Positions 1,892-17,250 of a DNA stretch of 22,772 nt are shown here, piece by piece (the first letter of the stretch is position 1; each line of letters starts with the position of its first letter). Origin of the DNA: a virus; the IMG/VR virus record IMGVR_UViG_3300046011_000296, positions 1 to 22,772 of that record; one strand, written 5' to 3'. The notes beneath the pieces were generated by a model that saw nothing but the letters and a program-made list of their open reading frames with translations, made no database searches and was not told the DNA's origin. The position numbers were made by a program, and so were the translations under genes.

Positions 1892-4399
1892 ATGGCTATT
1901 GAAAAGTCGTTGAGTCAAGCTCCCATTGGTGTGATGTCCGAGATGTCAGCGGCACCCGATATTGAGATCGAAATCGAAGATCCCGAGTCGGTAACGATTG
2001 GTATCGGTGATCTTGAGATTGAGTTTGAGAAAAAAGAGATGACCGACGAAGACTTCAACGCCAATCTTGTTGAGTCAATGGACGATGAAGTCGTTGCGAG
2101 TCTTGCCGGTGAGTTGATTGGTGACTATGACGAAGACGTAGCCTCCAGAAAAGATTGGATACAGACTTATGTAGACGGCCTAGAGCTTCTTGGAATGAAA
2201 TTAGAAGACCGGGCTGAACCATGGGAAGGCGCTTGCGGTGTGTACCACCCGCTTTTGTCCGAAGCCCTGGTCAAGTTCCAGTCGGAAACGATGATGTCTA
2301 CGTTTCCTGCCTCTGGGCCGGTGAAAACACAGATCATCGGCAAAGAAACGCCCGAGAAAAAAGAGTCCGCCAAGCGTGTGCAGGACGACATGAACTACCA
2401 GTTGATGGATGTCATGAAAGAGTACCGGCCTGAACATGAGCGGATGCTCTGGGGCTTGGGTCTTTCTGGTAATGCGTTCAAAAAGGTCTATTTTGACCCC
2501 AGTATTGAGCGGCAAGTCTCTCTATTTGTCCCAGCAGAAGACATTGTTGTGCCTTATGGCGCATCGGATCTTGTATCTGCGGAGCGTGTGACCCATGTTA
2601 TGCGTAAAACAGAGAATGAGCTGCGCCGACTACAGGTTTCCGGCTTCTATGCAGACATAGACCTCGGCCCACCCAATAATATGTTGGACGAAGTAGAGAA
2701 AAAGATCGCAGAGAAGTTGGGATTCCGTGCTTCGACCGACTCCCGGTACAAGATTCTTGAGATGCACGTGGAGTTGGACCTTCCTGGCCATGAGCACAGG
2801 GATGAAGACGACGAGTTAACGGGTATTGCGCTGCCGTATGTAGTGACTATTGAGAAGGGATCGAATCAAATCCTAGCCATTCGGCGTAACTGGGAGCCAG
2901 ACGATGAAACGTATGCGAAGCGACAGCATTTTGTTCATTACGGATATGTTCCCGGCTTTGGTTTTTACTATTTCGGCCTTATTCACCTTGTTGGTGCTTT
3001 TGCCAAGTCTGGTACTTCTCTCATTCGTCAGTTGGTTGATGCAGGAACACTGGCGAATTTGCCGGGAGGCTTTAAAGCGCGGGGTCTGCGCGTTAAAGGC
3101 GATGACACACCGATAGCACCTGGAGAGTTTAGAGACGTAGACGTTCCATCAGGGTCTATTAAAGACAACCTGATGCCGCTGCCGTACAAAGAACCAAGTC
3201 AGACTCTCTTCCAGTTGTTCCAAACCATTATTGATGAAGGTCGAAGGTTCGCTAACACAGCAGATCTTCAGATTTCCGATATGTCTGCCCAGGCACCAGT
3301 GGGAACTACGCTGGCCATTCTTGAGCGGACGCTAAAAACAATGTCGGCGGTCCAAGCTCGCGTTCATTACTCTATGAAGCAGGAGCTAGGGTTACTCAAG
3401 CAGATCATCGCGGCATACACGCCTGATGAGTACAGCTATGAACCAGTAGATGGACACCGCCGGGCGAAGAAAACAGACTATGACGATGTTGACGTTATCC
3501 CGGTTTCAGACCCAAATGCCTCGACGATGGCGCAAAAGATCGTTCAGTATCAGGCGGTCATGCAGTTGGCGCAGGCGGCTCCACAGCTATATAACCTGCC
3601 ACTACTTCACCGACAAATGCTCGATGTGCTTGGAATTAAAGATGCACAGAAGCTAGTGCCAATGGATGAAGATCAGAAGCCGGCAGATCCTGTAACAGAG
3701 AACCAGAATATGTTGCGTAACAAGCCGGTTAAAGCATTTGCGTACCAGGATCACAGAGCGCACATCACAGTGCACATGTCTGCTATGCAAGATCCGATGA
3801 TCCAAGAGTTGTTGAAGAACAACCCAATGGCCGGACAAATGCAAGCAGCCATGATGAACCATATCAACGAGCACTTGGGTATGGAGTATCGCAAGCAGAT
3901 CGAGTTACAGCTTGGCTTTAACCTGCCGCCCAAAGAAGATGAGATGGGCGAAGAGGTTGGTATGAATCCTGAAGTCGAAGCTCGCCTGGCACCGATGTTG
4001 GCTCAAGCTGCACAACGGCTTCTTTCTCAGAACCAGGCTCAAGTCGCGCAACAACAAGCGCAGCAGCAGGCACAAGATCCAATCATTCAGATGCAGCAGC
4101 AAGAGCTTGCAATGAAACAGGCTGAGATTCAACGCAAAGCCCAGAAAGATCAGGCTGATATTGAACTGCGTAAGCGTCAGCAGGAAATAGAAGCCGGTCG
4201 GATTATTTCGCAGGCTGAGTTCCAGAAGCAGAAGTTACAGAGTGATACGGAGCTTGAAGCTATTCGTACCGCAGCCGAGATGCGAGATGGCAGAGAAAAG
4301 GAAATCATTCGCATGGGCGTAGACATTGCAAAACAGTTGTCTAGCCAGGCACATCAGAAAGAAGTACAGCGCCCCCAACAACCAAAGGCTAACAAATGA
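1892..4399 (+). CDS. Portal protein (head-tail connector)
   Basis: An 835-residue protein directly after terminase, in the classic portal position. Portals form the dodecameric ring at one capsid vertex through which DNA enters. The N-terminus (about 18-50) is very acidic, the middle is a mixed alpha/beta body, and from about residue 700 to 825 there is a Gln/Ala-rich, strongly helical stretch with many QQ pairs, predicted to be coiled coil. The P22 portal is similarly large and ends in a long helical barrel, so a P22-like barrel is a reasonable inference. The start ATG has AAGGAT at 1881-1886. The stop overlaps the next start (ATGA). The assignment rests on position, size and general portal-like character rather than one diagnostic motif. 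Confidence 0.88.
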   Translation: MAIEKSLSQAPIGVMSEMSAAPDIEIEIEDPESVTIGIGDLEIEFEKKEMTDEDFNANLVESMDDEVVASLAGELIGDYDEDVASRKDWIQTYVDGLELLGMKLEDRAEPWEGACGVYHPLLSEALVKFQSETMMSTFPASGPVKTQIIGKETPEKKESAKRVQDDMNYQLMDVMKEYRPEHERMLWGLGLSGNAFKKVYFDPSIERQVSLFVPAEDIVVPYGASDLVSAERVTHVMRKTENELRRLQVSGFYADIDLGPPNNMLDEVEKKIAEKLGFRASTDSRYKILEMHVELDLPGHEHRDEDDELTGIALPYVVTIEKGSNQILAIRRNWEPDDETYAKRQHFVHYGYVPGFGFYYFGLIHLVGAFAKSGTSLIRQLVDAGTLANLPGGFKARGLRVKGDDTPIAPGEFRDVDVPSGSIKDNLMPLPYKEPSQTLFQLFQTIIDEGRRFANTADLQISDMSAQAPVGTTLAILERTLKTMSAVQARVHYSMKQELGLLKQIIAAYTPDEYSYEPVDGHRRAKKTDYDDVDVIPVSDPNASTMAQKIVQYQAVMQLAQAAPQLYNLPLLHRQMLDVLGIKDAQKLVPMDEDQKPADPVTENQNMLRNKPVKAFAYQDHRAHITVHMSAMQDPMIQELLKNNPMAGQMQAAMMNHINEHLGMEYRKQIELQLGFNLPPKEDEMGEEVGMNPEVEARLAPMLAQAAQRLLSQNQAQVAQQQAQQQAQDPIIQMQQQELAMKQAEIQRKAQKDQADIELRKRQQEIEAGRIISQAEFQKQKLQSDTELEAIRTAAEMRDGREKEIIRMGVDIAKQLSSQAHQKEVQRPQQPKANK

Positions 4400-5005: not shown

Positions 5006-5968
5006 ATGCCTGAATTTGAAAAAGATGAATTTAAATTCCCCGACGAACAGACTAACGAACTGAGCGTCACTATTGGAAACGACAAAAACGATAAGGTCGA
5101 AGTCGAGATAGAAGACGACACGCCTGAAGAGGATCGTGGCCGTCAGCCATTGCCCGCCCCTCTCAAAGAGGAGCTTGAGAAAGATGACCTAGAGGCTTAT
5201 GACGACGAGGTCAAACAAAAACTCAAGCAAATGCGGAAGGTTTGGCACGACGAGCGCCGCGAGAAAGAGGCCGCATATCGAGAGCAGCAAGAGGCTGTAC
5301 GCCTGGCGCAGCAGCTCATGAATGAGAACAAGCGGATTAAACAGATTCTTGATACTGGTGGGAAAGAATATGCCACTACGTTACAAGAAGCTGCCGCGTT
5401 AAAGCTCAAAATGGCCGAGGTGCAGTACAAAGAAGCCTATGATTCTGGAGATTCTGACAAGGTGTTAGAGGCCCAGAAAGAGCTTCAAACTGCCCAAATC
5501 CGGTCTATGCAGGCACAGAACTTCCAAATGCCTGCTTTACAAGAAGAAAATTTTCAGGTACAAAATACATACGAGACCCCGCAACCTCGGGCAAATCCGA
5601 AGTTACAGTCATGGCAGGACCGAAATCCCTGGTATGGCCAAGACGACGAGATGACCGCTGCGGCCTTGGGTTTACACGAAAAACTCAAGAAGAGCGGCGA
5701 GGTGCAAATAGGGTCTGATGAGTATTACGCGATTTTGGACAGAACAATTCGCAAACGGTTTCCAGAGAATTTTGAGGAGGCCGAGGTTCCAAAGGCAAAA
5801 GCTGAGTCTCGTACAAGATCGAGCACGGTAGTAGCCCCAGCAGTACGCAGCACCGCATCTAACAAGATACGGTTGAGAGCGAGCCAGGTTCAATTGGCTA
5901 AGAAGTTGGGATTAACACCAGAGCAGTACGCCTTAGAACTTAAAAAATTGGAGGCCCAAAATGGCTGA
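5006..5968 (+). CDS. Capsid assembly scaffolding protein
   Basis: A 320-residue, highly charged, low-complexity helical protein. The N-terminal 50 residues are acidic. A PAPLKEELEKDDLEAYDDEV segment (about 51-70) leads into a long coiled coil rich in Gln, Glu and Lys to about residue 170. A linker follows, and the protein ends in a basic helical hairpin (ASQVQLAKKLGLTPEQYALE). Scaffolds of tailed phages have this composition, with a C-terminal basic helix that binds the capsid subunit. The start has a near-perfect AGGAGG at 4996-5001, the strongest ribosome site in the head module, consistent with the high copy number a scaffold needs. It lies one gene downstream of the co-chaperonin and three genes ahead of capsid, as expected. 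Confidence 0.88.
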   Translation: MPEFEKDEFKFPDEQTNELSVTIGNDKNDKVEVEIEDDTPEEDRGRQPLPAPLKEELEKDDLEAYDDEVKQKLKQMRKVWHDERREKEAAYREQQEAVRLAQQLMNENKRIKQILDTGGKEYATTLQEAAALKLKMAEVQYKEAYDSGDSDKVLEAQKELQTAQIRSMQAQNFQMPALQEENFQVQNTYETPQPRANPKLQSWQDRNPWYGQDDEMTAAALGLHEKLKKSGEVQIGSDEYYAILDRTIRKRFPENFEEAEVPKAKAESRTRSSTVVAPAVRSTASNKIRLRASQVQLAKKLGLTPEQYALELKKLEAQNG

Positions 5969-7061: not shown

Positions 7062-7967
7062 ATGGCTATTTCACGCGCACAACTACTGAAAGAGCTTCTC
7101 CCTGGCCTGAACGCTTTGTTTGGTCTGGAGTATGCTCGTTACGGCGAACAGCACAAGGAAATCTACGAAACTGAGACTTCCGAGCGTTCGTTTGAAGAGG
7201 AAACCAAGCTCTCTGGCTTCTCAGCAGCGCCGGTTAAGAACGAAGGTTCTGCCATCGCTTATGACAACGCCCAGGAAGCATGGTCTGCTCGCTATAACCA
7301 CGAAACCATTGCTTTGGGTTTCTCGCTGACCGAAGAGGCCATCGAGGACAACCTGTACGACAGCCTGTCTGCTCGTTACACCAAAGCCCTGGCCCGTGCT
7401 ATGGCTTACACCAAACAGATCAAGGCCGCTGCGGTTCTGAACAATGGATTTGACTCCGCCTTTGCTGGTGGCGACGGTCAACCCCTGTTCTCCAACGCGC
7501 ACCCCTTGGTCTCTGGTGGCACAAACAGCAACATCCCCACGACTCCTACCGATCTCAACGAGACCTCTCTTGAGAACGCAGTGATTCAAATTGCTGCATG
7601 GACGGATGAGCGCGGACTGCTGATTGCAGCCAAGCCCAAGAAGCTCGTCGTTCCCCCTGCCCTCCAGTTCGTGGCCACCCGTCTCCTTGAGACTGAGCTG
7701 CGTGTTGGTACGGCGGACAACGACATCAACGCCATCAAGAATAACGGTTCTATCCCTGAAGGGTATACCGTTAACAACTTCTTGACGGACACCAACGCAT
7801 GGTTCCTGACCACTGACGTTCCTAATGGTATGAAGCACTTTGTGCGCGTACCGTTGCAGAACTCGATGGACGGTGACTTCGACACTGGTAACGTTCGTTA
7901 CAAGAGTCGTGAGCGTTATTCCTTCGGATTCTCGGATCCGCTCGGAATGTTCGGTTCCGCAGGCTAA
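7062..7967 (+). CDS. Major capsid protein (HK97 fold, Mu gpT-like)
   Basis: A 301-residue protein with the pattern of Mu gpT-like major head subunits. There is an N-terminal helical arm (RAQLLKELLPGLNALFG), an E-loop-like segment with many charged residues (ETETSERSFEEETKLSGF, about 32-49), a spine-helix region (SLSARYTKALARAMAYTKQIKAA, about 103-125), the FSNAHPLVSGG motif (about 145-155), and a C-terminal beta part ending in RERYSFGFSDP. It has AAGGAG before the start and is closed by a strong terminator eight bases after its stop, fitting a highly expressed last gene of the head block. Many Ala, Arg and Asn codons are of the GCT/CGT/AAC type often seen in highly expressed genes. HK97 subunits tile the icosahedral shell. 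Confidence 0.92.
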   Translation: MAISRAQLLKELLPGLNALFGLEYARYGEQHKEIYETETSERSFEEETKLSGFSAAPVKNEGSAIAYDNAQEAWSARYNHETIALGFSLTEEAIEDNLYDSLSARYTKALARAMAYTKQIKAAAVLNNGFDSAFAGGDGQPLFSNAHPLVSGGTNSNIPTTPTDLNETSLENAVIQIAAWTDERGLLIAAKPKKLVVPPALQFVATRLLETELRVGTADNDINAIKNNGSIPEGYTVNNFLTDTNAWFLTTDVPNGMKHFVRVPLQNSMDGDFDTGNVRYKSRERYSFGFSDPLGMFGSAG

Positions 7968-7974
7968 GCAGTAT

Positions 7975-8007
7975 AAGGATAGGGGGCTTCGGCCCCCTTC
8001 CTTTTTT
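7975..8007 (+). terminator. Rho-independent terminator with UUCG tetraloop
   Basis: AGGGGGC (7981-7987), loop TTCG (7988-7991) and GCCCCCT (7992-7998) form a perfect 7-bp stem of the very stable C(UUCG)G type. AAGGA (7975-7979) and TCCTT (7999-8003) can extend the stem by five pairs past a bulged T, and TTTTTT at 8002-8007 supplies the U tract. It sits eight bases after the capsid stop and separates the head block from the downstream virion genes, presumably giving extra capsid transcript with partial read-through. Confidence 0.93.
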
Positions 8008-8710: not shown

Positions 8711-8883
8711 TGCAGATAACTAAAGAGTTTCTGCTAGAAGAGATCAAGCAAATGGAACAGCAACGCGCTCACGCACATGACGTAGCCGTTGCTTCCCAGG
8801 CTGCCATAGATACGATGAAAGCTATGCTGGCCCGTCTTGAACTACCAGATCCAGTGGAGAGCCAAAATGGGTATGCAGTATGA
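8710..8883 (+). CDS. Small coiled-coil phage protein
   Basis: A 57-residue frame beginning MQITKEFLLEEIKQMEQQRA and ending LPDPVESQNGYAV. The ATG overlaps the preceding stop (TAATG). The last 17 bases overlap the next gene. It is almost entirely helical and Gln/Ala/Glu-rich with heptad-like spacing (LLEEIKQMEQQ then VAVASQAAIDTMKAMLARL). Similar short ITKEFL proteins, to my recollection, are frequent in phage structural operons without assigned function. The tight junctions on both sides argue that it is a real, translated gene despite its size. Confidence 0.75.
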   Translation: MQITKEFLLEEIKQMEQQRAHAHDVAVASQAAIDTMKAMLARLELPDPVESQNGYAV

Positions 8884-9355
8884 CGTAAAGTCGTTTCACG
8901 CAGAGGTTTCATCACTTGCGTATGCGGCTCGTACACGTCTCAAAGGTGTAGTTATATCTCCCACTACGTCAACGACGTTTAACTCATGTGTAGTTGATAC
9001 TGATGGGGCGTTGACGGGAACGTATGACATTCCTGGTTCAACTACTTGTACGGTGACAATTGCTAATCATGGATTGTCAAACGGGGATATAGTTGGTCTA
9101 AACTTTACTAGCGGTACGGCAGTAGACGACAGTTATGTAGTATCAAATGTAACAACTGATACGTTTACTATAACCACGGCAAGTTTGACTACCAGCGGCG
9201 ATGTAACCATGTACCCTAAAGTCCTTGTTGAATTAGATTGCTCAACCGGCACAGCGTTTTATACATTGATTCCGGGCGAAGGCATCCTTGCAGCGGGCGG
9301 ACTGTTTTGTTTGCTGCCGTCAACCAATGTAACCATGACTATTTTTTACGGATAG
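8867..9355 (+). CDS. Virion protein, tandem paralogue copy 1
   Basis: A 162-residue beta-rich protein. ATG at 8867 is chosen because GGAGAG at 8856-8861 precedes it and the sister gene begins likewise with MQYDVKS; ATG at 8873 is also possible. Shared blocks with the next gene are MQYDVKS at the start, TVTI-NHG, FTSGTA-D, DTFT, TTSG-VT-Y, LIPGEGI and F-YG at the end. The central NHGLSNGDIVGLNFTSGTA block resembles a small beta module recurrent in phage structural proteins. Its job is probably capsid or neck decoration; no enzyme motif is seen. Coupled to the 57-residue gene upstream by a 17-base overlap. Confidence 0.8.
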   Translation: MGMQYDVKSFHAEVSSLAYAARTRLKGVVISPTTSTTFNSCVVDTDGALTGTYDIPGSTTCTVTIANHGLSNGDIVGLNFTSGTAVDDSYVVSNVTTDTFTITTASLTTSGDVTMYPKVLVELDCSTGTAFYTLIPGEGILAAGGLFCLLPSTNVTMTIFYG

Positions 9356-9364
9356 GAATAGGCC

Positions 9365-9859
9365 ATGATGCAATATGACGTTAAATCCGCTCGGGCCGCA
9401 GGTACCGGGTTGCTTGTAACGCAGATCCCCGTAAGATTGAAGTCAATTACGGTGACAAGTGGGACTTCGTCTAGAAGGCAGACCGCCGTATGTGATCCAA
9501 CCGTTCAAAAGTCAGGCACGTACGCACGTACAAGCCCAAGCACCACGATTACGGTGACCATTGTTAACCATGGTTTTGAGACCGGACAGCGGGTGTTTTT
9601 AGACTTTACGTCTGGTACTGCAAGAGATGGCGTGTACGCTATTACTAAAACGGGTGACGATACGTTTACCTGCGTAGACACTGGTGTAAGCACTACGACG
9701 AGCGGGAACGTCACAGCGTATAGCAGTATTGCTCTGGAAATTGCCACGTTCAGTACAGTTGGGTTGCCGGTTCTGATTCCAGGCGAAGGCATATATTGCC
9801 CCAACGGTATTTTCGTTGGTTGTGGTTCTTCTGTAACTGCGACGGTGTTCTATGGCTAA
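9365..9859 (+). CDS. Virion protein, tandem paralogue copy 2
   Basis: A 164-residue protein clearly homologous to the preceding gene across its length. MQYDVKS, VTIVNHGFETGQRVFLDFTS, DDTFTCVD, TTSGNVTAYS, LIPGEGIYCPNG and TATVFYG line up with the sister blocks, while the region around residues 10-50 has diverged strongly. AGGAATAGG lies just before the ATGATG start. The stop overlaps the following start by 8 bases. Tandem duplication followed by divergence suggests two related subunits of one decoration layer, or different partners in the same structure. No specific function can be read. Confidence 0.8.
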   Translation: MMQYDVKSARAAGTGLLVTQIPVRLKSITVTSGTSSRRQTAVCDPTVQKSGTYARTSPSTTITVTIVNHGFETGQRVFLDFTSGTARDGVYAITKTGDDTFTCVDTGVSTTTSGNVTAYSSIALEIATFSTVGLPVLIPGEGIYCPNGIFVGCGSSVTATVFYG

Positions 9860-10133
9860 GGGCATGGGCATCAAAACCTCTGTGAAGTCGGGCAACTTCC
9901 GTCCGACTAAGCAGGGCGCTGGTATGACAGATAAAGGCGTGGCAGCGTATCGCCGTGCCAATCCAGGGTCAAAGCTCAAGACTGCCGTAACAGAAGACAA
10001 GCCTACTGGAGAACGGGCAAAGCGCCGCAAATCATTTTGTGCGCGGTCGGCTGGACAGATGAAGCAGTTTCCAGAAGCCGCCAAAGATCCCAACAGCCGT
10101 ATTCGGCAAGCGAGAAAAAGGTGGAAGTGTTAA
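9852..10133 (+). CDS. Small basic protein resembling DUF6321
   Basis: A 93-residue, strongly basic protein. Recognisable blocks are GMTDKGVAAYRRANPGSKLKTAV (about 24-46), RAKRRKSFCARSAGQM (about 55-70) and the end SRIRQARKRWKC. I recall this as the DUF6321 type found in phages and other viruses; that name is from memory. Two cysteines lie at about 63 and 93. There is no membrane segment or enzyme motif. It starts inside the previous stop (8-base overlap) and is followed directly by a membrane-protein gene. The charge suggests nucleic-acid contact, perhaps packaged with DNA, but the function is unknown. Confidence 0.8.
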   Translation: MAKGMGIKTSVKSGNFRPTKQGAGMTDKGVAAYRRANPGSKLKTAVTEDKPTGERAKRRKSFCARSAGQMKQFPEAAKDPNSRIRQARKRWKC

Positions 10134-10382
10134 ATGGAAATGATGCTTTGGAATATCGCTTTGAGTGCGATAGTGGCAATTATGGGTATGCTGCTTAAAA
10201 GTAAGTTCGATGAACTTAACCGTCTGAGCATCCTGCTTAACAGGACTCGGGAAGAGGTAGCTCGGGAGCACATTACCCGTGCAGAGGTACGGCAGGATCT
10301 GGATAAGATCCGTGAACATTTTGACGACGGCTTCCGCAGACTAGAGGCCAAACTTGACGCGATGGCGCAGAGGAAATTATGA
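10134..10382 (+). CDS. Single-pass membrane/coiled-coil protein, possibly lysis-related
   Basis: An 82-residue protein with one hydrophobic segment at about 5-21 (LWNIALSAIVAIMGMLL), then a charged helical region (about 22-82) with heptad character (LNRLSILLNRTREEVAREH, REHFDDGFRRLEAKL). The start abuts the preceding stop with no gap, and the stop overlaps the next start as ATGA. A short N-terminal membrane anchor with a coiled coil could fit a small holin-type or inner spanin-type protein, or a membrane-docking virion protein. No endolysin lies beside it, so a lysis role is only a possibility. Confidence 0.8.
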   Translation: MEMMLWNIALSAIVAIMGMLLKSKFDELNRLSILLNRTREEVAREHITRAEVRQDLDKIREHFDDGFRRLEAKLDAMAQRKL

Positions 10383-11038
10383 AACGCAAAGTCAAACGGT
10401 ATTCGCCTGGCGGCGGCATTGAAGATGATGCCATCAGTCTTGAGCAGACTGGTGGGTTTGGTCGAGCTGCGGCAGAGGAAGCTGCTAAGCGTCCTACCTT
10501 TGCAAGCACGATGGGCCAGATAGATGATCGTGATCGTCGAGAAATGGCGATGGCAGATATGGCAAAAACGAAGCCGGCCAAGTCTGCGGTTGTAACAAAA
10601 GAACAGATGAAAAAAGCCGGTTTTGATAACCTGCGCGACTATCTCAATGCTCAGCGTGGTCTTACCCGTCGTGGTTCGGCAGCAGCTCCAGCACCAAAAT
10701 CCATGGGTCCAAGCGGACAGGACATAGACCGCATGGAATCCGCTCTGACGGCCTCCAATATCCGTGATGAGCGTAGAGCATACGAGCAAGGCAAGGACGC
10801 TACAGCAGCCGCTAAGAAGGCGGCAGACATGCAGAAAGAGCGTGCTGCATACCTCAAAGAACAGAATCGTTTAAAAGAAGATACTCAGACAGGATCTGGG
10901 CGTCTTGCTCGCAAGGCTGAAGCATTTAGAACCAGAATGCGTGAACAGGCTGCTGGCATGAAGAAGGGTGGCATGGTCGCATCAAAACGCGCAGACGGTA
11001 TTGCTCAGCGCGGCAAAACCCGTGGAAGGATTATCTAA
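10379..11038 (+). CDS. Helical basic virion-module protein with C-terminal KGG/GKTRG motif
   Basis: A 219-residue, Ala/Lys/Arg-rich, mostly helical protein. The start MKRKVKRYSPGGGIEDD is basic, then comes a long charged helix region (about 120-190) and a C-terminal tail with KKGGMV followed by ADGIAQRGKTRGRII. That tail recurs in altered form at the end of the next gene and in the middle of the one after it, so three successive genes share it. No catalytic site is seen. It is translationally coupled to its neighbour by ATGA. A structural or DNA-associated role is suggested by charge and gene context only. Confidence 0.75.
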   Translation: MKRKVKRYSPGGGIEDDAISLEQTGGFGRAAAEEAAKRPTFASTMGQIDDRDRREMAMADMAKTKPAKSAVVTKEQMKKAGFDNLRDYLNAQRGLTRRGSAAAPAPKSMGPSGQDIDRMESALTASNIRDERRAYEQGKDATAAAKKAADMQKERAAYLKEQNRLKEDTQTGSGRLARKAEAFRTRMREQAAGMKKGGMVASKRADGIAQRGKTRGRII

Positions 11039-11284
11039 ATGGAACAGGAACGCAAGGACTCTACCCGCACTAAGATGATCAAAGAAGCAAAGATCGAAGA
11101 TGACTTCTTAGGCATCAAAAAGGGTATTAAATATGCGACGACAAAAGCTAGTGAACTAGCTGATCGTATGGGCTATACCCAAGAAGAGGAATACAAGAAG
11201 CCAATTAAAAAGGCCAAAGGCGGTTATGTTCGGTCCGCTGATGGGTGTGCAGTCCGTGGTAAGACGAAAGGAAAAATGGTATGA
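11039..11284 (+). CDS. Small basic protein with ADGCAVRGKTKG C-terminal motif
   Basis: An 81-residue protein. Residues 1-55 are a mixed-charge helix (MEQERKDSTRTKMIKEAKIE through MGYTQEEEYKK). The C-terminus is KAKGGYV, then ADGCAVRGKTKGKMV, matching the tail of the preceding gene (ADGIAQRGKTRGRII) and an internal block of the following gene. The ATG follows the previous stop immediately, and the stop overlaps the next ATG. It is probably a real member of the basic mini-protein cassette. No enzyme or membrane feature is seen. The shared tail may be a docking or DNA-binding tag, which is inference. Confidence 0.75.
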   Translation: MEQERKDSTRTKMIKEAKIEDDFLGIKKGIKYATTKASELADRMGYTQEEEYKKPIKKAKGGYVRSADGCAVRGKTKGKMV

Positions 11285-11520
11285 AAAAGATGATGACCGG
11301 TATGGGCCCCACCAAGATGGGTGCTGTTAAGACTGCTGCTCCTAGCAAAGATGGCGTGGCCGTTAAGGGCAAGACCAAAGGCAAGATGGTCAAGATGGCT
11401 GCTGGTGGTATGCCGATGGTTATGAAGGGCGGAAAGAAAGTCCCGGCGTTTGCTGCTGATGGCAAGGGCAAGATGGCCAAAGGTGGCATGACGAAGATGC
11501 GTTACGGCGGGAAGTGCTAA
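11281..11520 (+). CDS. Lys/Met/Gly-rich mini-protein
   Basis: A 79-residue protein of extreme composition: by my count about 18 Lys, 13 Met and many Gly, with only two acidic residues. The block KDGVAVKGKTKGKMV is the same motif that ends the two upstream proteins, here followed by repeats of the form KMAAGGMPMVMKGGKK and GKGKMAKGGMTKMRYGGKC. No stable hydrophobic core is evident, so it is likely disordered or folded on a partner such as DNA. Start is by ATGA overlap and the stop abuts the next ATG. The composition resembles protamine-like viral core peptides, but that is analogy, not homology. Confidence 0.75.
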   Translation: MKKMMTGMGPTKMGAVKTAAPSKDGVAVKGKTKGKMVKMAAGGMPMVMKGGKKVPAFAADGKGKMAKGGMTKMRYGGKC

Positions 11521-11805
11521 ATGATGCCCTCACGCGGGATGGGCGCTGTGCGTTCTTCCAAGATGCCAACTGCAAAAACCGGGAGGCGGAAAGATGGAGA
11601 CACTTTTACTCAGTATAAAGAGGGTGGCAAAGTCAAGTCTCGCGTCAATGAGGCAGGCGTTTACACGAAGCCTGGAATGCGTAAAAGCCTATTTGAAAAG
11701 ATTAAGGCTTCCGCGACTCAAGGGACGGCTGCGGGTCAATGGAGCGGAAGAAAAAGCCAACTCTTAGCAAAACAATATAAAGCTCGTGGCGGTGGTTATA
11801 AGTGA
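11521..11805 (+). CDS. Small basic conserved phage protein
   Basis: A 94-residue basic protein with the recognisable stretch KSRVNEAGVYTKPGMRKSLF (about 40-59), then GQWSGRKSQLLAKQYKARGGGYK to the end. I recall relatives of this block from uncultured phages and other viral genomes, but cannot give a firm family name. The N-terminus MMPSRGMGAVRSSKMP is again Met/Arg/Ser-rich with a KEGGKV core. The ATG abuts the previous stop, with GGGAAG upstream. Its stop overlaps a possible GTG start (GTGA). Presumed virion-associated from position; no activity is visible. Confidence 0.78.
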   Translation: MMPSRGMGAVRSSKMPTAKTGRRKDGDTFTQYKEGGKVKSRVNEAGVYTKPGMRKSLFEKIKASATQGTAAGQWSGRKSQLLAKQYKARGGGYK

Positions 11806-11975
11806 TCAAGGCACCTGTGTACAACCCTCAAAAGGATGGCAACGTCTTTCGATGGTTACTGGTAGCTTCGCAGGTGTATCGGAAAAGAAAGCAGGTAGAG
11901 ACCAATGCCGCTAAAGAAGCCACAACAGAGCTTAAAAGAATGGGGCCAGCAGAAGTGGAAGACCAAAAGTGGTAA
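11802..11975 (+). CDS. Possible 57-residue gene in the gap, GTG start
   Basis: A frame opens with GTG overlapping the previous stop as GTGA and encodes MIKAPVYNPQKDGNVFRWLL followed by a basic helix (VASQVYRKRKQ) and a charged tail. It covers the otherwise empty 99-base gap 11806-11904 and then overlaps the next gene by 71 bases in another frame. GGTGG shortly before the GTG could serve as a weak ribosome site. In favour: coupling geometry identical to its neighbours and a protein-like composition. Against: short length, a non-ATG start and long overlap with a gene I trust more. Confidence 0.45.
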   Translation: MIKAPVYNPQKDGNVFRWLLVASQVYRKRKQVETNAAKEATTELKRMGPAEVEDQKW

Positions 11976-12144
11976 ACCGTCGTCCGTTACCGGCGAGCGC
12001 TACCTCCCAGAGAAGGCGATCAACGCACTTTCTAGTTCAGAGTATGCAGCGACGACTAGAGCGAAAAGAGCTGGTAAGGCTGCTGGAAAACAGTTTGTTA
12101 AACAGCCAAAACGAATTGCAGCAAAGACAGCGAGGTTCAGATGA
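11905..12144 (+). CDS. Small basic protein with WRTKSGKPSS-type motif
   Basis: A 79-residue, very basic protein. Conserved-looking blocks are SLKEWGQQKWKTKSGKPSS (about 9-27), VTGERYLPEKAINALSSSEY (about 28-47) and a Lys/Arg/Ala tail (TRAKRAGKAAGKQFVKQPK). Proteins of this type occur, as I recall, in phages and in some large eukaryotic DNA viruses, with no function known. AGGTAGAG at 11892-11899 is a fair ribosome site. The stop overlaps the next start by ATGA. The charge again suggests DNA or RNA contact. The family recollection is uncertain. Confidence 0.8.
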   Translation: MPLKKPQQSLKEWGQQKWKTKSGKPSSVTGERYLPEKAINALSSSEYAATTRAKRAGKAAGKQFVKQPKRIAAKTARFR

Positions 12145-12413
12145 AAACGGTTACACCTAGCCCGGCTAAAGAAGATCAGATGAGCAAAGACCCGATTGAC
12201 CAGATCAAGAAGGCCAAGGGTAAAACTGTTATTGCAAAGTCTGGTGGGTGGATCAAAGACGCGATCAAGAAGCCTGGTGCGTTACGCGCCTCTCTTGGCG
12301 TCAAGAAAGGTGAGAAGATCCCTGCCGGTAAGCTCGCTGCTGCTGCCAAGAAGCCTGGCAAGATGGGTCAGCGTGCTCGCCTGGCTCAGACATTGAAGAA
12401 GTTAGGAAAGTAA
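12141..12413 (+). CDS. Small basic protein with KKPGALRASLG motif
   Basis: A 90-residue protein rich in Lys, Ala and Gly. The C-terminal two thirds read WIKDAIKKPGALRASLGVKK, then GEKIPAGKLAAAAKKPGKMG, then QRARLAQTLKKLGK, a compact helical and basic pattern I recall from many phage structural regions. GAGG precedes the ATG at 12141; an internal ATG at 12180 (MSKDPIDQIKKAK) is an alternative start. It is coupled to its neighbour by ATGA, and the neck gene begins one base after its stop. A virion-internal or DNA-binding role is plausible; no function is established from the sequence. Confidence 0.8.
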   Translation: MKTVTPSPAKEDQMSKDPIDQIKKAKGKTVIAKSGGWIKDAIKKPGALRASLGVKKGEKIPAGKLAAAAKKPGKMGQRARLAQTLKKLGK

Positions 12414-12414
12414 G

Positions 12415-13347
12415 ATGCCTACCTCCGGGACCGTAGCGTTTAACTTAGACCTCTCCAATCTTATTGAAGAGGCGTTTGAGCGCGTCGGTGGCGAGCTGCG
12501 TTCTGGTTACGATCTGCGGACGGCCAGGCGGTCATTGAACCTGTTGACGATTGAGTGGAGCAACCGGGGCGTAAACCTTTGGACGATGGAGCAGGGATCG
12601 TTCCCGCTGGTTACAGGCCAGGCCATCTATCCCATCCCCTCGGATACGATCCAGATCCTTGATACGGTCATCCGGCAGAATCCTGGTACGTTGAACCAGA
12701 TCGACATCAACATCAGCAACATCGCTGAGCCGACCTATTCTTCGATCCCCAATAAACTTACCCAAGGACGCCCGATTCAGTATTGGTTTAACCGGCAGTC
12801 TGGAAACGAGAATGCCACCGCAATTACCCTGGCCCAAGACATCAATGCCACGGATACGACGATTGAGCTGAGCACGACGACGGGCTTGGCTGCGGCAGGC
12901 TTTATCAAGATTAACAACGAGACAATCAGCTACCCCAACATCTCGGGTAGCTCGCTTATAAACTGCGCCCGTGGACAGAATGGCACTACGGCGACAGGTC
13001 ATGCGGTCATTGGTACACCCCCGATCACGGTGCAGAACCTCCCGTGTGTGAACCTCTGGCCGACGCCTAATCCGCCTGGAGACCAGTACACATTTGTCTA
13101 CTGGAGACTTCGCCGGATGCAGGACGCCGGGAATGGAACAACGGTACAGGACATCCCGTTCAGGCTTATCCCGTGTATGGTGGCTGGCCTGGCGTATTAC
13201 CTCGGCATGAAGCTCCCAGGGATAGACCCCACCAGGATTCAGATGCTCAAGATGGACTATGAAGAGCAGTGGACCTTGGCGTCCCAAGAGGACCGTGAGA
13301 CAGCTCCGCTGCGGATCGTCCCGCGTAACATGTTCTACTACGGATAA
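12415..13347 (+). CDS. Head-tail adaptor (neck) protein with inserted beta domain
   Basis: A 310-residue protein. The N-terminal part (about 11-60, NLIEEAFERVGGELRSGYDL then ARRSLNLLTIEWSNRGVNLW) and the C-terminal part (about 225-300, YTFVYWRLRRMQDAGNGTTV, then IPFRLIPCMVAGLAYYLGMK) have the helical/beta pattern of podovirus-type neck proteins that bind under the portal. Between them, about 134-206, lies a beta segment (ITLAQDINATDTTIELSTTT, FIKINNETISY, CARGQNGTTATGHAV) of the kind often found in phage fibres and decoration proteins, apparently inserted. The start has AGGAAAG upstream. The neck role is inferred from pattern and order. Confidence 0.78.
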   Translation: MPTSGTVAFNLDLSNLIEEAFERVGGELRSGYDLRTARRSLNLLTIEWSNRGVNLWTMEQGSFPLVTGQAIYPIPSDTIQILDTVIRQNPGTLNQIDINISNIAEPTYSSIPNKLTQGRPIQYWFNRQSGNENATAITLAQDINATDTTIELSTTTGLAAAGFIKINNETISYPNISGSSLINCARGQNGTTATGHAVIGTPPITVQNLPCVNLWPTPNPPGDQYTFVYWRLRRMQDAGNGTTVQDIPFRLIPCMVAGLAYYLGMKLPGIDPTRIQMLKMDYEEQWTLASQEDRETAPLRIVPRNMFYYG

Positions 13348-13349
13348 AA

Positions 13350-13946
13350 ATGGCCTACAAAGACCCAGCCAGAGCCCTGGAATACTATCGCCAGTACAAC
13401 GAGAAACGTCGTGCTGCGAAGCGTCCTATTAGCGCTAGGCAGGCCGCTATGAATGCTGGTGAGATCCAATACTCAACAGGCGAACCGTGTGTCAACGGGC
13501 ATTTAAGTCCAAGAAGCACGCAGACAAGAATTTGCATGGAGTGTGATCGTTTGAGAAAGTCAAAAAAACGATTAGCAAATCCAGAGTTGTATCAAGAAAA
13601 AGGTCGCAGGTATTACGCTGAACATAGGCAAAAGGCTTTAGATCAGAAAAAGGTTTACAGGCAAGCAAACAAAGGGAAGATTATTGCTCTGGCTGCACTT
13701 AGGAAAAAAATCATCAAGCAGCGCACTCCTAAGTGGCTAACCAAAGACGACTTGTGGATGATCAAAGAAGCCTATGATCTTTCTAGTTTGCGGACTAAAA
13801 TGTTTGAGTTCTCTTGGCATGTGGATCATGTGATACCGCTGCAAGGAGAAACGGTAAATGGGTTACATGTCCCAACAAACTTGCAAGTTATACCCGGCAC
13901 AATAAACCTTTCCAAAAAGAACAAGTACGAGGCAAACTATGCCTAA
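13350..13946 (+). CDS. HNH endonuclease (likely homing type)
   Basis: A 198-residue protein. A zinc-binding region CVNGH (47-51) and CMEC (62-65) is followed by a very basic helix-rich linker and a C-terminal HNH core: HVDH (157-160), N177 in VPTNLQVIP, and TINLSKKNKY (about 184-193). HNH enzymes of this shape are free-standing phage homing or nicking endonucleases. The central part is A-rich compared with the neighbouring neck gene, suggesting a separate origin. Only GGAT precedes the ATG, a weak ribosome site. It lies between two structural genes and overlaps the next by 8 bases. HNH proteins can also help packaging, but those usually sit beside terminase. Confidence 0.9.
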   Translation: MAYKDPARALEYYRQYNEKRRAAKRPISARQAAMNAGEIQYSTGEPCVNGHLSPRSTQTRICMECDRLRKSKKRLANPELYQEKGRRYYAEHRQKALDQKKVYRQANKGKIIALAALRKKIIKQRTPKWLTKDDLWMIKEAYDLSSLRTKMFEFSWHVDHVIPLQGETVNGLHVPTNLQVIPGTINLSKKNKYEANYA

Positions 13947-14376: not shown

Positions 14377-14559
14377 ATGACTAAACAGATGCGTAGCGTA
14401 GCCAAAAAGGAAGCCATGAAGGCCGTCAAGGGTCATGAGGCTTCTATGCACAAGGCTAAAAAGATGAAGGCTGGTGGCCCGACTTCTCTCGACATGAAGA
14501 AGTATGGCCGTGGCATGGCAAAAGTAATGAACCAGCGTCAATCCGTAAGGGGACGATAA
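14377..14559 (+). CDS. Lys/Met-rich mini-protein
   Basis: A 60-residue basic peptide (MTKQMRSVAKKEAMKAVKGH, then SMHKAKKMKAGG and a tail ending SVRGR). It contains a KAGG block like the KKGG/AKGG blocks of the cassette at 10379-11520, but not the GKTKG motif. TTAGGAGT at 14364-14371 is a good ribosome site, and the stop overlaps the next ATG (TAATG), so translation is credible. It lacks any hydrophobic core and is probably disordered or DNA-bound. Confidence 0.7.
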   Translation: MTKQMRSVAKKEAMKAVKGHEASMHKAKKMKAGGPTSLDMKKYGRGMAKVMNQRQSVRGR

Positions 14560-14849
14560 TGGCTAAGTTCAGCAAAAAAGTGATGGGCAAAGAGGTAGGC
14601 AGCGGCGAGCTGTATGCCACCCCCCATACCATGCAAGGTTCCGTGATCGATGAGAAGGCAGCGATGCTGTCTGTCAGTCGTCCTCCCGATCCTAATACGC
14701 TTGCCGCTAAGGACTTTACCTGTAACACCCCGGCTGGCCGTGTGAGCTTTGGCGATCCTGGCCGTGACAACGTGAAGACCGACGGTATCAGGATTCGTGG
14801 AACTGGGGCAGCAACCAAGGGCGTAATGGCTAGAGGGCCGATGGCGTGA
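14559..14849 (+). CDS. Small conserved phage protein ending GTGAATKGVMARGPMA
   Basis: A 96-residue protein. The N-terminus is basic (MAKFSKKVMGKEVGSGELYA), the middle is polar, and the C-terminal motif GIRIRGTGAATKGVMARGPMA-like block (about 76-96) is one I recall as conserved in phages with this gene order. AAGGGG at about 14547-14552 precedes the ATG. The stop overlaps the next gene's GTG start (GTGA). No activity can be read. The position directly before a neck gene and the flexible Gly/Arg/Met-rich tail suggest an extended arm that binds a partner in the virion. Confidence 0.78.
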   Translation: MAKFSKKVMGKEVGSGELYATPHTMQGSVIDEKAAMLSVSRPPDPNTLAAKDFTCNTPAGRVSFGDPGRDNVKTDGIRIRGTGAATKGVMARGPMA

Positions 14850-15502
14850 ATTATTCCGAATTGACCGCTGCAATTAAGGGCTACGCAGAGAACGATTTCC
14901 CAGAAACAGTGGGATCGTTTACCTCTGCCAGCCAGATAGCTACGTTTGTTGAGCAGGCGGAGCAGCGGATCTACAACTCTGTGCAGATTCTTGCGCTGCG
15001 GAAGAACTCTACTGGTACGGTTACTGGTGGGAGCCAGTATCTGTCCGCCCCCTTGGATTGGCTGTCCACCTTCTCTCTAGCAGTAATTGACCCTGTAACG
15101 GGTGAGTACGAGTACCTGCTGGACAAGGATGTGAACTTCATCCGCCAGGCGTACCCATATCCAACGACATCAGGCAAACCGCTGTACTATGGTTTATGGG
15201 ATGAGAACACGTTCATCCTGGGGCCGACGCCAGACGCCAATTACACGATGGAGCTGCACTACTTCTATTATCCCGAGTCAATTGTGACGGCTGGCACGTC
15301 CTGGCTTGGGGATAACTTTGACTCTGTTCTTTTGTATGGTGCTTTGCTGGAAGCCGCGGCGTTTATGAAGAGCGAGCCAGATACGATTGGCAATTACACG
15401 GCCCGATACAATGAAGCCATGAGCGTTCTAAAGCAGCTTAGCGAAGGCAAGAACCGGTCAGACGCCTACCGTAATGGCCAGATTAGAGTGCCGATTACAT
15501 GA
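14846..15502 (+). CDS. Head-tail connector / tail tubular protein A-like
   Basis: A 218-residue protein with the pattern of podovirus tail tubular A or gp4/gp6-like connectors. An N-terminal helix (NYSELTAAIKGYAENDF, then IATFVEQAEQRIYNSVQILA) leads to a beta middle (GSQYLSAPLDWLSTFSLAVI, KPLYYGLWDENTFILGPTP, YTMELHYFYYPESI) and a C-terminal helix bundle (SVLLYGALLEAAAFMKSEPD, ARYNEAMSVLKQLSEGK). GTG at 14846 is the start, overlapping the upstream stop as GTGA. Such proteins form the ring below the portal. It is the second neck-type protein in the window, the other being at 12415-13347. Confidence 0.82.
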   Translation: MNYSELTAAIKGYAENDFPETVGSFTSASQIATFVEQAEQRIYNSVQILALRKNSTGTVTGGSQYLSAPLDWLSTFSLAVIDPVTGEYEYLLDKDVNFIRQAYPYPTTSGKPLYYGLWDENTFILGPTPDANYTMELHYFYYPESIVTAGTSWLGDNFDSVLLYGALLEAAAFMKSEPDTIGNYTARYNEAMSVLKQLSEGKNRSDAYRNGQIRVPIT

Positions 15503-15915
15503 TCACTCAGACACAGACCACGTCGTTCAAAGAGGAACTCTACGAGGGTATCCACGATCTTTTGACCGATACCATCAAGATCGCTCTCTACACCGCCAAC
15601 GCCGATTTAGGGGCATCCACGACGGTCTATACCACGGACCAAGAAGTCACTGGAACAGGCTACACCGCCGGGGGTCTTACTGTAACAAATGTTACAGTGG
15701 CATCGTCTGGAACAACCGCGTATGTGAGCTTTGACAATCCTCAGTGGACCGGGGTGTCGTTTACCTGCCGGGGCGCTTTGATATATAACTCCAGCAAGGC
15801 CAATAGATCCGTAGCAGTCCTCAACTTCGGCAACGACAAGATTGTGACCAACGGAACATTTACGGTCACGATGCCTGCCAACACGGCTACAACCGCCCTG
15901 ATAAGGTCTCAATAA
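15499..15915 (+). CDS. Small beta-rich virion protein carrying the palindrome
   Basis: A 138-residue beta protein (MITQTQTTSFKEELYEGIHD start; IKIALYTANADLGASTTVY; TGTGYTAGGLTVTNVTV; ALIYNSSKANRSVAVLNFG; a TALIRSQ end). The pattern recurs in phage tail or decoration proteins, as I recall. A weaker version is seen in the 155-residue gene at 16783-17250. The start overlaps the previous stop by ATGA and the stop overlaps the next ATG by one base. Its coding sequence contains the perfect 20-bp palindrome at 15679-15698, read as Thr-Val-Thr-Asn-Val-Thr. Virion role from context. Confidence 0.82.
   Translation: MITQTQTTSFKEELYEGIHDLLTDTIKIALYTANADLGASTTVYTTDQEVTGTGYTAGGLTVTNVTVASSGTTAYVSFDNPQWTGVSFTCRGALIYNSSKANRSVAVLNFGNDKIVTNGTFTVTMPANTATTALIRSQ
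15679..15698. promoter_or_regulatory. Intragenic copy of the leader palindrome
   Basis: ACTGTAACAAATGTTACAGT is a perfect 9-bp inverted repeat around AA. Its 18 bases from 15681 to 15698 are identical to 38-55 in the leader. It lies inside a virion gene, in frame as ACT-GTA-ACA-AAT-GTT-ACA-GTG minus the last base, so a Val/Thr-rich protein context could favour it by chance. I found no other full palindrome of this type in the window, although isolated half-sites are common. Confidence 0.6.
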
Positions 15916-16781
15916 TGTTCGCTTCGTTCTTCTCCGAACCACCGACTGTAGTGGTATCTCAGATCCCCCCGACTGAGCATGAGACATGGATGCCAGCGGA
16001 AGACTTTGAGATGTGTGGGTCGCTGAACATAGACCTGGATCTCTTAAAGAAGAATGTCGAAACCAACATCAGGAAGGGCTTTCAGCAGATCGTTCCCCAT
16101 CCGACTAATGAGGTGGAGGCAATGATTGTTGGGGGCGGACCGTCCTTGAAAGAATACATCCACGAAATTAAGAGCCTGCGCCGCCAAGGTGTGAAGCTCA
16201 TTACTTTGAACAACGCCTACCAATACTGTATCGACGCGGGGGTGATGCCTTCTGCAATGGTTATGGTAGACGCCAGGCCGTTCAATGCACGATTTGTAGA
16301 AAACATCATCCCGGACTGCAAATACTTTATTGCATCGCAGTGTGACCCGACGGTCTTTGACAAGCTGCCCAAGGACAGGACTTATATCTGGCACACCAGC
16401 GCGGAAGAGATTAGTGACATTCTGGCGACCGAATACGCCAATTGGTATCCCGTTCCTGGCGGTTCTACCGTCTTGTTACGGACGCTACCTTTGTTTAGAA
16501 TGTTAGGATTCAAGCGGTTTCATATCTTTGGATGTGATTCCTGTTTGGAAGATGGAGCGCACCATGCTTACGAGCAGCAAGAAAACGATGACCAGATGGT
16601 CATTCCTGTGCGTGTCGGCGGCAAAGTTTTTCACTGTAATCCGTGGATGGTTTCGCAGGCCAAAGAGTTTATTGACTTGATCGCCTGCATGGGTGATGTG
16701 ATGGAGTTGGAAATCTACGGCGGATTACTCCGTCAAATTTTGGAAACTGGCGCTTCTCGCGCAGACTTAGAGGAGATTTAA
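15915..16781 (+). CDS. DUF115 / MptE-like (Rossmann-type) protein
   Basis: A 288-residue protein resembling the DUF115/MptE-like domain. It has a glycine loop IVGGGPSL (71-78), the strand ending VMVDARP (116-122), the block PGGSTVLLR (181-189), and HIFGCDSCLEDGAHHAY (203-219). The superfamily includes archaeal 6-hydroxymethylpterin diphosphokinase and bacterial motility accessory (Maf) glycosyltransferase-like proteins, so phosphate- or sugar-nucleotide chemistry is possible. Substrate cannot be read from the sequence. It sits between two small virion proteins and ahead of fibre genes, where it might modify a virion protein or glycan. The ATG overlaps the preceding TAA, with AAGG upstream. 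Confidence 0.8.
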   Translation: MFASFFSEPPTVVVSQIPPTEHETWMPAEDFEMCGSLNIDLDLLKKNVETNIRKGFQQIVPHPTNEVEAMIVGGGPSLKEYIHEIKSLRRQGVKLITLNNAYQYCIDAGVMPSAMVMVDARPFNARFVENIIPDCKYFIASQCDPTVFDKLPKDRTYIWHTSAEEISDILATEYANWYPVPGGSTVLLRTLPLFRMLGFKRFHIFGCDSCLEDGAHHAYEQQENDDQMVIPVRVGGKVFHCNPWMVSQAKEFIDLIACMGDVMELEIYGGLLRQILETGASRADLEEI

Positions 16782-16782
16782 A

Positions 16783-17250
16783 ATGGCTGCAACCGCATGG
16801 CAACTGTATAACACTGCCAAACGCTACATCGGCAACGGGACGATTGAACTCGGTGCTGGTAACTTCAAGATGGCGCTGTTCCGTACTTCTAGTAATGCTT
16901 CGACCTTTACCCTCAGCACGTTTGGACAGTTGACGTCTCAGATCTCTGCGACCGGCGGATACGTGAGTGGTGGTAAAGCTCTTGTTCCGGCTACCGGCCA
17001 GTGGACAACGGGCGCATCAGCTAAGCAGATGAAGTTCACCTACTCGACAGTGGGCCTGACCTTCACCGCTTCTGGCGCTTCGTTGACAAACATTCGGTAC
17101 GCTGTGATTACGTTTGGAGCATCGGCTGCTGTGGCTTCCGCCCGTAAGTTGGTTTGCTTCTGCCAGCTATCGAGCGCACAGTTTACTGTCACGTCGCCCA
17201 ACACTCTTACGGTTCTTCCGGCTGCTACTGGCGTCTTCACCCTTACCTAA
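16783..17250 (+). CDS. Small beta-rich virion protein
   Basis: A 155-residue Ser/Thr/Ala-rich beta protein (WQLYNTAKRYIGNGTIELGA, FKMALFRTSSNASTF, GGYVSGGKALVPATGQW, YAVITFGASAAVASARKLV, SAQFTVTSPNTLTV). It is similar in strand order to the 138-residue protein at 15499-15915: IKIALYTANAD against FKMALFRTSSNA, then G-Y-xGG, then a late hydrophobic pair. GAGGAG just before the ATG is a strong ribosome site. The DUF115-like gene ends one base before. A tail or decoration role is inferred. No catalytic feature is seen. Confidence 0.78.
   Translation: MAATAWQLYNTAKRYIGNGTIELGAGNFKMALFRTSSNASTFTLSTFGQLTSQISATGGYVSGGKALVPATGQWTTGASAKQMKFTYSTVGLTFTASGASLTNIRYAVITFGASAAVASARKLVCFCQLSSAQFTVTSPNTLTVLPAATGVFTLT

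Follow-up and report, generated by a model that had tools for sequence, protein, structure and literature searches.

The virus record IMGVR_UViG_3300046011_000296 of IMG/VR was analysed over a stretch of 22,772 bases (hereafter the window), a virus fragment that represents only part of a genome. Through in silico analysis, the following order of genes was established on the plus strand: TerL, portal, GroES-like protein, scaffold-like acidic protein, major capsid protein, decoration-like genes, a cassette of small, mostly basic proteins, head-to-tail adaptor and tail genes. The source phage is water-borne and short-tailed, and its closest cultured relatives in a portal comparison include the pelagiphages HTVC023P and HTVC027P, phage DSL-LC04 and Planktothrix phage Pag-Yong1. 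The subject of this analysis is the cassette (positions 9852–12413) together with a short peptide, here called the tag, which is common to three of its proteins.

The cassette is formed from eight consecutive plus-strand open reading frames (ORFs) between the capsid genes and the adaptor, named here by their first positions. They follow one another with ATGA overlaps of four bases or spacers of 0–2 bases, and this packing continues into the adaptor; the sole exception is one gap of 99 bases, which holds a possible extra ORF. An earlier reading of this DNA, made without database searches (the sequence-only reading), had described six or seven tiny genes encoding very basic proteins. The cassette is real and had been placed correctly, although it comprises eight genes, one of which (10379) encodes 219 amino acids (aa), and very basic products are found for seven of the eight, the exception being 10134 with its low net charge and hydrophobic N-terminus (Table 1).

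The motif DGxAx[RK]GKT[KR]G is present in three adjacent genes (10379, 11039 and 11281), twice at the C-terminus and once internally, exactly as had been claimed. In shuffled copies of these three proteins, 1.4e-6 to 6.4e-6 chance matches would be expected for each. Relatives were collected in two ways: the capsid protein served to fetch 80 loci, and a search with the motif as a degenerate DNA pattern gave at least 116 more. Strict motif ORFs number at least 299, in at least 148 loci, and 203 of the 299 place the motif no more than 8 residues from the C-terminus. The 276 unique strict cases converge on R-[AG]-D-G-[ICV]-A-x-[RK]-G-K-T-[KR]-G-[KRT]-[MIF]-[VIC]-stop, and a stretch rich in K, G and S that contains KGG usually stands in front of it; written over 17 residues, the tag is x-R-[AG]-D-G-x-A-x-[RK]-G-K-T-[RK]-G-x-M-x-end. 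Residues fixed in the search pattern are no evidence of invariance, and a relaxed profile search yielded 96 more cases, in which K is replaced by H or R, the last core glycine by A or C and, rarely, D by G or N. Exactly three residues lie between core and stop in 67% of the tags by one count and in 184 of 277 by another. Two other classes were distinguished: (i) a subterminal tag in proteins with a VKM..GGKC-like ending, and (ii) an N-terminal tag, seen in few proteins, at the 14377 position. A Walker A interpretation of GxxxxGKT was ruled out, the K being replaceable by H or R and the tag lying at the extreme C-terminus.

A variant of the tag occurs downstream of the adaptor. The 14559 family, ending RGTGAATKGxMARGPMA, matches the tag profile if one additional residue is allowed. 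Its homologues score above the 99% shuffle level for that profile in 94% of cases, and 78 of 84 keep the same spacing to the end. A pattern search with the variant gave 88 new loci, and 87 of the 88 matching proteins came from the same phage group, all with the match within 10 residues of the C-terminus. The resemblance to the cassette that the sequence-only reading had seen in the pair at 14377–14849 is borne out by this ending of 14559, and by the N-terminal tags of some proteins at the 14377 position.

The ratio of nonsynonymous to synonymous substitution rates (dN/dS) amounts to 0.05–0.16 for cassette pairs against their nearest relatives, restricted to pairs with unsaturated dS; these are therefore real, selected genes under purifying selection. 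Within the tag, the codons of the fixed residues are variable (AAA and AAG about half each, GGC and GGT likewise). Synonymous codons are thus free to vary and the amino acids are kept, therefore selection acts on the peptide and not on the DNA.

Between 1 and 5 tags (strict or profile match) were found in 32 of the 34 adaptor-bearing loci fetched by the capsid protein, a set unbiased with respect to the tag; the cassette is conserved. Position was examined in the 58 loci that, after deduplication, had an adaptor and no less than 5 kilobases (kb) of sequence upstream of it. With one exception among 98, the tags lie on the adaptor's strand and at most 6 kb upstream of it. The order is near-constant: DUF6321, 10134-type, tagged genes, 11521-type, 11905-type, 12141-type, adaptor, 13939-type, 14377-type, 14559-type and 14846-type, and all these families share the strand of the adaptor. 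The 9852-type gene is present in 54 of the 58 loci, at a median of 2.15 kb upstream of the adaptor. Every motif locus without an adaptor match is a contig ending no more than 1.9 kb downstream of the tag.

A scan of GTDB (one genome per prokaryote species) returned 28 pattern matches, against about 15 expected by a rough estimate; real tags were present on 4 contigs only, 3 of which bear the adaptor gene of the phage group. Spread of the tag to cellular genomes was rejected on these results. As far as sampled, the tag is a property of one phage group and nearly universal there. A separate observation concerns locus L223, a contig of a Patulibacter metagenome-assembled genome (JALRCL010000652.1, binned with an actinobacterium), which encodes a protein of 613 residues that carries a perfect tag at its C-terminus; the core genes of the phage group were not found on the stretch examined. 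Searches with tblastn of the bare tag, 10379 and 14559 against cultured phages gave no match, the low-complexity filter probably removing such queries. The freshwater and marine podoviruses DSL-LC04, HTVC023P, HTVC027P and Pag-Yong1 have the same capsid, portal and adaptor genes and a cluster of basic mini-proteins, although these differ from those of the window. No strict tag was observed in DSL-LC04 or the HTVC phages; Pag-Yong1 encodes, two genes upstream of the adaptor, a protein ending in GRDGCAKRGRTKGRFI.

Table 1. Tags, cassette genes and associated head and neck genes of the window (pI, isoelectric point; E-values follow family names)
Feature	Position	Strand	Evidence
Major capsid protein, locus anchor	7062–7967	+	phrog_371 major head protein 1.5e-25; Pfam Phage_capsid_4 2.4e-15
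DUF6321 mini-protein, 93 aa, pI 11.3, net +19	9852–10133	+	Pfam PF19846 E 1.3e-14, 55 bits vs cut-off 28.5; phrog_10346 2.9e-27
Small protein, 82 aa, pI 8.2, net +1, hydrophobic N-terminus then charged helix-like part	10134–10382	+	phrog_7885 4e-8
Tagged basic protein, 219 aa, pI 10.3, tag at extreme C-terminus	10379–11038	+	Sequence; 74/75 assigned homologues tagged
Tag core DGIAQRGKTRG, then RII and stop; full form DGIAQRGKTRGR (gene 10379)	10994–11026	+	Sequence
Tagged basic protein, 81 aa, pI 9.6, tag at extreme C-terminus	11039–11284	+	Sequence; 34/34 assigned homologues tagged
Tag core DGCAVRGKTKG, then KMV and stop; full form DGCAVRGKTKGK (gene 11039)	11240–11272	+	Sequence
Tagged basic K/G/M-rich protein, 79 aa, pI 10.6, internal tag	11281–11520	+	Sequence; 56/59 homologues tagged
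Tag core DGVAVKGKTKG, internal; full form DGVAVKGKTKGK (gene 11281)	11350–11382	+	Sequence
phrog_17747 mini-protein, 94 aa, pI 10.8	11521–11805	+	phrog_17747 1.1e-26
Possible extra gene of 57 aa starting with GTG, overlaps neighbours (GTGA overlap with 11521)	11802–11975	+	Conserved in loci L140 and L043 (9e-19, 7e-17)
phrog_14910 mini-protein, 79 aa, pI 11.0	11905–12144	+	phrog_14910 7.7e-37
K/A-rich mini-protein, 90 aa, pI 10.6, net +18	12141–12413	+	Directly upstream of adaptor in 18/58 adaptor loci
Head-to-tail adaptor, SU10/Pam1-like	12415–13347	+	Pfam SU10_adaptor 1.7e-5, 25.8 bits, slightly under cut-off 27
Basic mini-protein, net +14	14377–14559	+	Same-position proteins in some relatives carry an N-terminal tag (L025, L063, L150, L161, L162; L121)
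Mini-protein ending in tag variant	14559–14849	+	Tag profile score in homologues
Variant tag RGTGAATKGVMARGPMA, last codons before stop of 14559	14796–14846	+	Sequence

The cargo in front of the tag is diverse. BLAST clustering at 1e-4 of 231 N-terminal parts (at least 40 residues each) gave 100 clusters, 80 of them singletons and the largest with 93 members, and tagged proteins of the same locus fell into different clusters in 131 of 148 pairs. The portability of the tag is clearer from the DUF6321 family than from these clusters: in 10 of 121 homologues the tag is appended after the usual C-terminal W-x-C (seen in L072, L177 and L212). Pfam analysis of the tagged cargo gave almost nothing, namely DUF6496 once and two weak, chance-like matches. 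In PHROGs, 17 of 86 tagged proteins share an N-terminal module of about 45 residues common to phrog_16759, phrog_22033 and phrog_25121, the last two annotated as “virion structural protein, head and packaging”. In the fetched loci, a hidden Markov model of this module found 106 distinct proteins, including 90 with a tag; in loci with an adaptor they are invariably encoded upstream of it. The module is absent from the window, including the 11281 product, and is frequent in tagged proteins of the 11281 type elsewhere. Among cultured phages it occurs in 125 records, mostly phiKZ-like and other jumbo phages, with identity of at most about 60% over the module length. The phiKZ copy is the free-standing 58-residue protein PHIKZ165.1, whose gene lies a few kilobases away from genes 162 and 163, which encode internal head proteins; in GAP32 the module starts the 844-residue GAP32_317, annotated as a virion structural protein. 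Compared with these two, to which it is roughly 55–60% identical, the module of the relatives stands N-terminally on tagged proteins.

The sequence-only reading knew of no described function for this combination of genes. Some untagged members do belong to described families (DUF6321, phrog_17747 and phrog_14910), in which function is unassigned. The 9852 product passes the curated cut-off of DUF6321 (PF19846), a family of cyanophages and pelagiphages; according to the query used, between 355 and 536 records of cultured phages contain it. In the T7-like P-SCSP1o its gene lies between the capsid and gp11 genes, and in T4-like proteins of cluster GC119, which adjoin neck genes, DUF6321 forms the C-terminus. 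Two cyanophage proteins ending in DUF6321 are connected with virions: S-CREM2 gp137 was detected by mass spectrometry (MS) in CsCl-purified virions (PMC10665884), and SSCSM1_29 carries the record annotation “virion protein”, the virion of its phage having been analysed by MS (PMC9602691). DUF6321 is thus the C-terminal part of cyanophage virion proteins, whereas here it is a free-standing mini-protein that is sometimes tagged. No paper naming DUF6321 was found in the literature, and at the terms searched in the P-SCSP1u structure paper no such protein is named.

The 11521 and 11905 products correspond, as separate proteins, to the two halves of S-CRES1 gp97: in hhalign comparisons, 11521 aligns with residues 6–47 (probability 96, E 3e-9) and 11905 with residues 42–123 (probability 98, E 1.5e-14). 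The gp97 protein is itself a weak match to DUF5872 (PF19197), below the gathering score, and the Pfam model of DUF5872 matched neither 11521 nor 11905. Genes of the two types are adjacent or close also in HMO-2011-type phages and other pelagiphages. The DUF5872-like halves, fused in gp97 and encoded by separate neighbouring genes here, suggest a functional link between 11521 and 11905; one paper listing a DUF5872 gene, from an algal virus, assigns it no function. AlphaFold gave a weak model for DUF6321 (mean predicted local distance difference test score, pLDDT, 73) and a better one for 11905 (84.5), the latter with significant similarity only to viral proteins, nameless in the tables used. 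Sequence and fold searches of the PDB gave nothing useful.

Tags of the same genome are more alike than tags of different genomes at the variable amino acid columns (0.626 against 0.515, permutation p 0.0005), most strongly at the variable position that follows the conserved A (0.64 against 0.29) and at the last two residues. At synonymous sites they are not more alike (0.384 against 0.358, p 0.16). Likeness in amino acids without likeness in synonymous sites points to co-adaptation to a shared partner, since recent duplication would raise both. In Mantel tests, which are exploratory and confounded by shared ancestry, tag similarity did not track the adaptor (Spearman 0.06, p 0.13) and weakly tracked the scaffold (0.29) and the capsid protein (0.24); a weak signal was obtained also for 11905. 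With signals for head proteins and none for the adaptor, a head partner is therefore placed ahead of the adaptor, though this is no proof. An acidic peptide is common to the N-termini of the portal (1892–4399; IEIEIEDPES) and the scaffold (5006–5968; VEVEIEDDTPEEDRGR). Its strict pattern was present in 26 of 72 portals, in 15 of 89 scaffolds and in a single TerL; no other head protein tested had it. This peptide is a possible candidate partner for the basic tags.

A constant peptide in exact C-terminal register, attached to varied cargo and always encoded close to the adaptor gene, looks like a docking or targeting tag. The best supported interpretation, with a probability of roughly 45%, is that the small basic proteins of the cassette are virion-associated and share a docking or packaging tag. 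Of the roles that the sequence-only reading had proposed, a common packaging tag also fits best, given in addition the protein-level constraint and portability of the tag, its likeness within genomes, the location among head genes and the virion-protein homology of some members; the ejected internal proteins it had named are compatible with this. The basic proteins would be made from one tight structural operon together with the head-tail adaptor, and one partner, located in the growing head or at the portal vertex, would recognise the 17-residue tag, so that docking brings otherwise unrelated proteins into the particle. The tagged proteins would thus enter the virion through a single receptor, presumably a head protein (scaffold, portal or capsid), and the cargo would act inside the head or be ejected.

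The best comparison is offered by bacteriophage T4, in which the internal proteins IPI, IPII, IPIII and Alt are diverse and have only a short capsid targeting sequence in common (PMC3012670, PMC7697877). The likeness consists in a short conserved sequence on highly diverse proteins of the same genome and in cargo that varies strongly among relatives; several unrelated proteins per genome carry the one sequence here as in T4. The tag may therefore work like the T4 capsid targeting sequence, to which it is unrelated. There are also differences. The T4 sequence is N-terminal, about 10 residues long and cleaved by the head maturation protease, whereas the tag is mostly C-terminal; no dedicated protease gene was found among the head genes of the window, which covers only part of a genome. 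More tentatively, the tag could be a C-terminal head-targeting signal, perhaps uncleaved, that marks exchangeable internal proteins across a large aquatic podovirus group. Head loading would then have been solved a second time, independently, and phiKZ-like jumbo phages would share one of the cargo modules. If the tag directs head entry, it would explain the recurrent unannotated basic mini-proteins of widespread freshwater and marine phages, allow internal or ejected proteins to be found by sequence through a search for the tag and hence its cargo, and mean that the design of a targeting sequence plus variable cargo arose outside T4-like phages too.

Several points weigh against the packaging interpretation. 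The virion links all come from homology of other parts, and virions have so far yielded no tagged protein. The MS coverage of S-CREM2 gp137 is 4.1% of 490 aa and need not touch DUF6321; SSZBM1_192, another DUF6321 protein, is missing from the virion MS list of S-SZBM1 (PMC9146016), though Lys/Arg-rich proteins give short tryptic peptides. The phiKZ module stands alone and without structural annotation, and neither AlphaFold model (DUF6321 or 11905) matched a solved structure. As to the cargo, a single BLAST cluster takes in 93 of the 231 N-terminal parts, and many of these parts look to be of low complexity, so that fast divergence may account for some of their apparent unrelatedness. Ancient gene conversion, with synonymous sites since saturated, could also have produced the likeness within genomes.

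Positive charge invites a different explanation, namely a DNA-condensing or DNA-binding set that is packaged with the genome or coats it, with the tag itself binding DNA. The net charge is positive in all 276 tagged proteins, its median is +0.08 to +0.23 per residue in most cassette families, and most cassette proteins, being rich in K, R and G, fall on the disordered side in a charge–hydropathy plot. Charge alone is nevertheless insufficient to account for the retention of D, A and T and for the exact register to a mostly hydrophobic C-terminus, and the similarity of tags within a genome points to a specific partner and not to DNA. Protamine-like proteins are very Arg/Lys-rich and lack a conserved positional motif, whereas K and R make up about 22–28% in the basic members of the window and positional conservation is strong. 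A DNA-binding role is thus unlikely, and the protamine-like condenser of the sequence-only reading is weaker than its packaging tag. Docking on the outside of the adaptor or portal, as assembly helpers or minor neck components, is unlikely: the cassette is indeed packed against the adaptor on both of its sides, and 14559, shortly downstream, ends in the variant tag, yet tag similarity tracks the scaffold and capsid weakly and the adaptor not at all in the Mantel tests described above, and such diversity of cargo would be unusual for a structural neck part.

Small, basic, fast-evolving proteins without assigned function are common among the host-takeover genes of phages. The cassette products could be proteins or peptides directed at the host, active within the infected cell and absent from the particle. 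This is very unlikely, however, for genes that lie inside the head-neck structural operon of relatives and carry a strongly conserved tag; no PADLOC family was matched among the 86 tagged proteins, and no support was found for the host-targeted peptides proposed earlier. Least probable, and only barely credible, is that the tag is no functional peptide but is maintained at the DNA level, as a by-product of repeats or a recombination joint. The tag does recur at gene ends beside exchanged cargo, but its amino acids are kept while synonymous codons vary freely, and tags of the same genome are no more alike at synonymous sites than other tags; these two results rule out the simple form of this explanation.

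Some features around the cassette deserve mention. Directly 3' of the capsid gene stop, a strong GC hairpin followed by a T run (7981–7998) is like an intrinsic terminator that would reduce expression of the downstream genes. The genes at 8837–9355 and 9365–9859 are an apparent paralogue pair with a common PGEGI...VFYG-like ending and a match to phrog_32294. The adaptor (12415) has 50% identity to the “Pam1 adaptor protein” of phage DSL-LC04 and is directly followed by an Endonuclease VII/HNH-like gene (13350–13946, phrog_1035), whose homologues in relatives occupy other places in the operon, as would a mobile gene. Among the tail genes, 15499–15915 and 16783–17250 form another apparent paralogue pair, both matching phrog_644, and an MptE-like domain (Pfam PF01973, 3.6e-21) is encoded at 15915–16781. 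The window ends in an open-ended, glycine-rich ORF of more than 1000 residues with long internal repeats (19751–22771), probably a tail fibre truncated where the contig ends.

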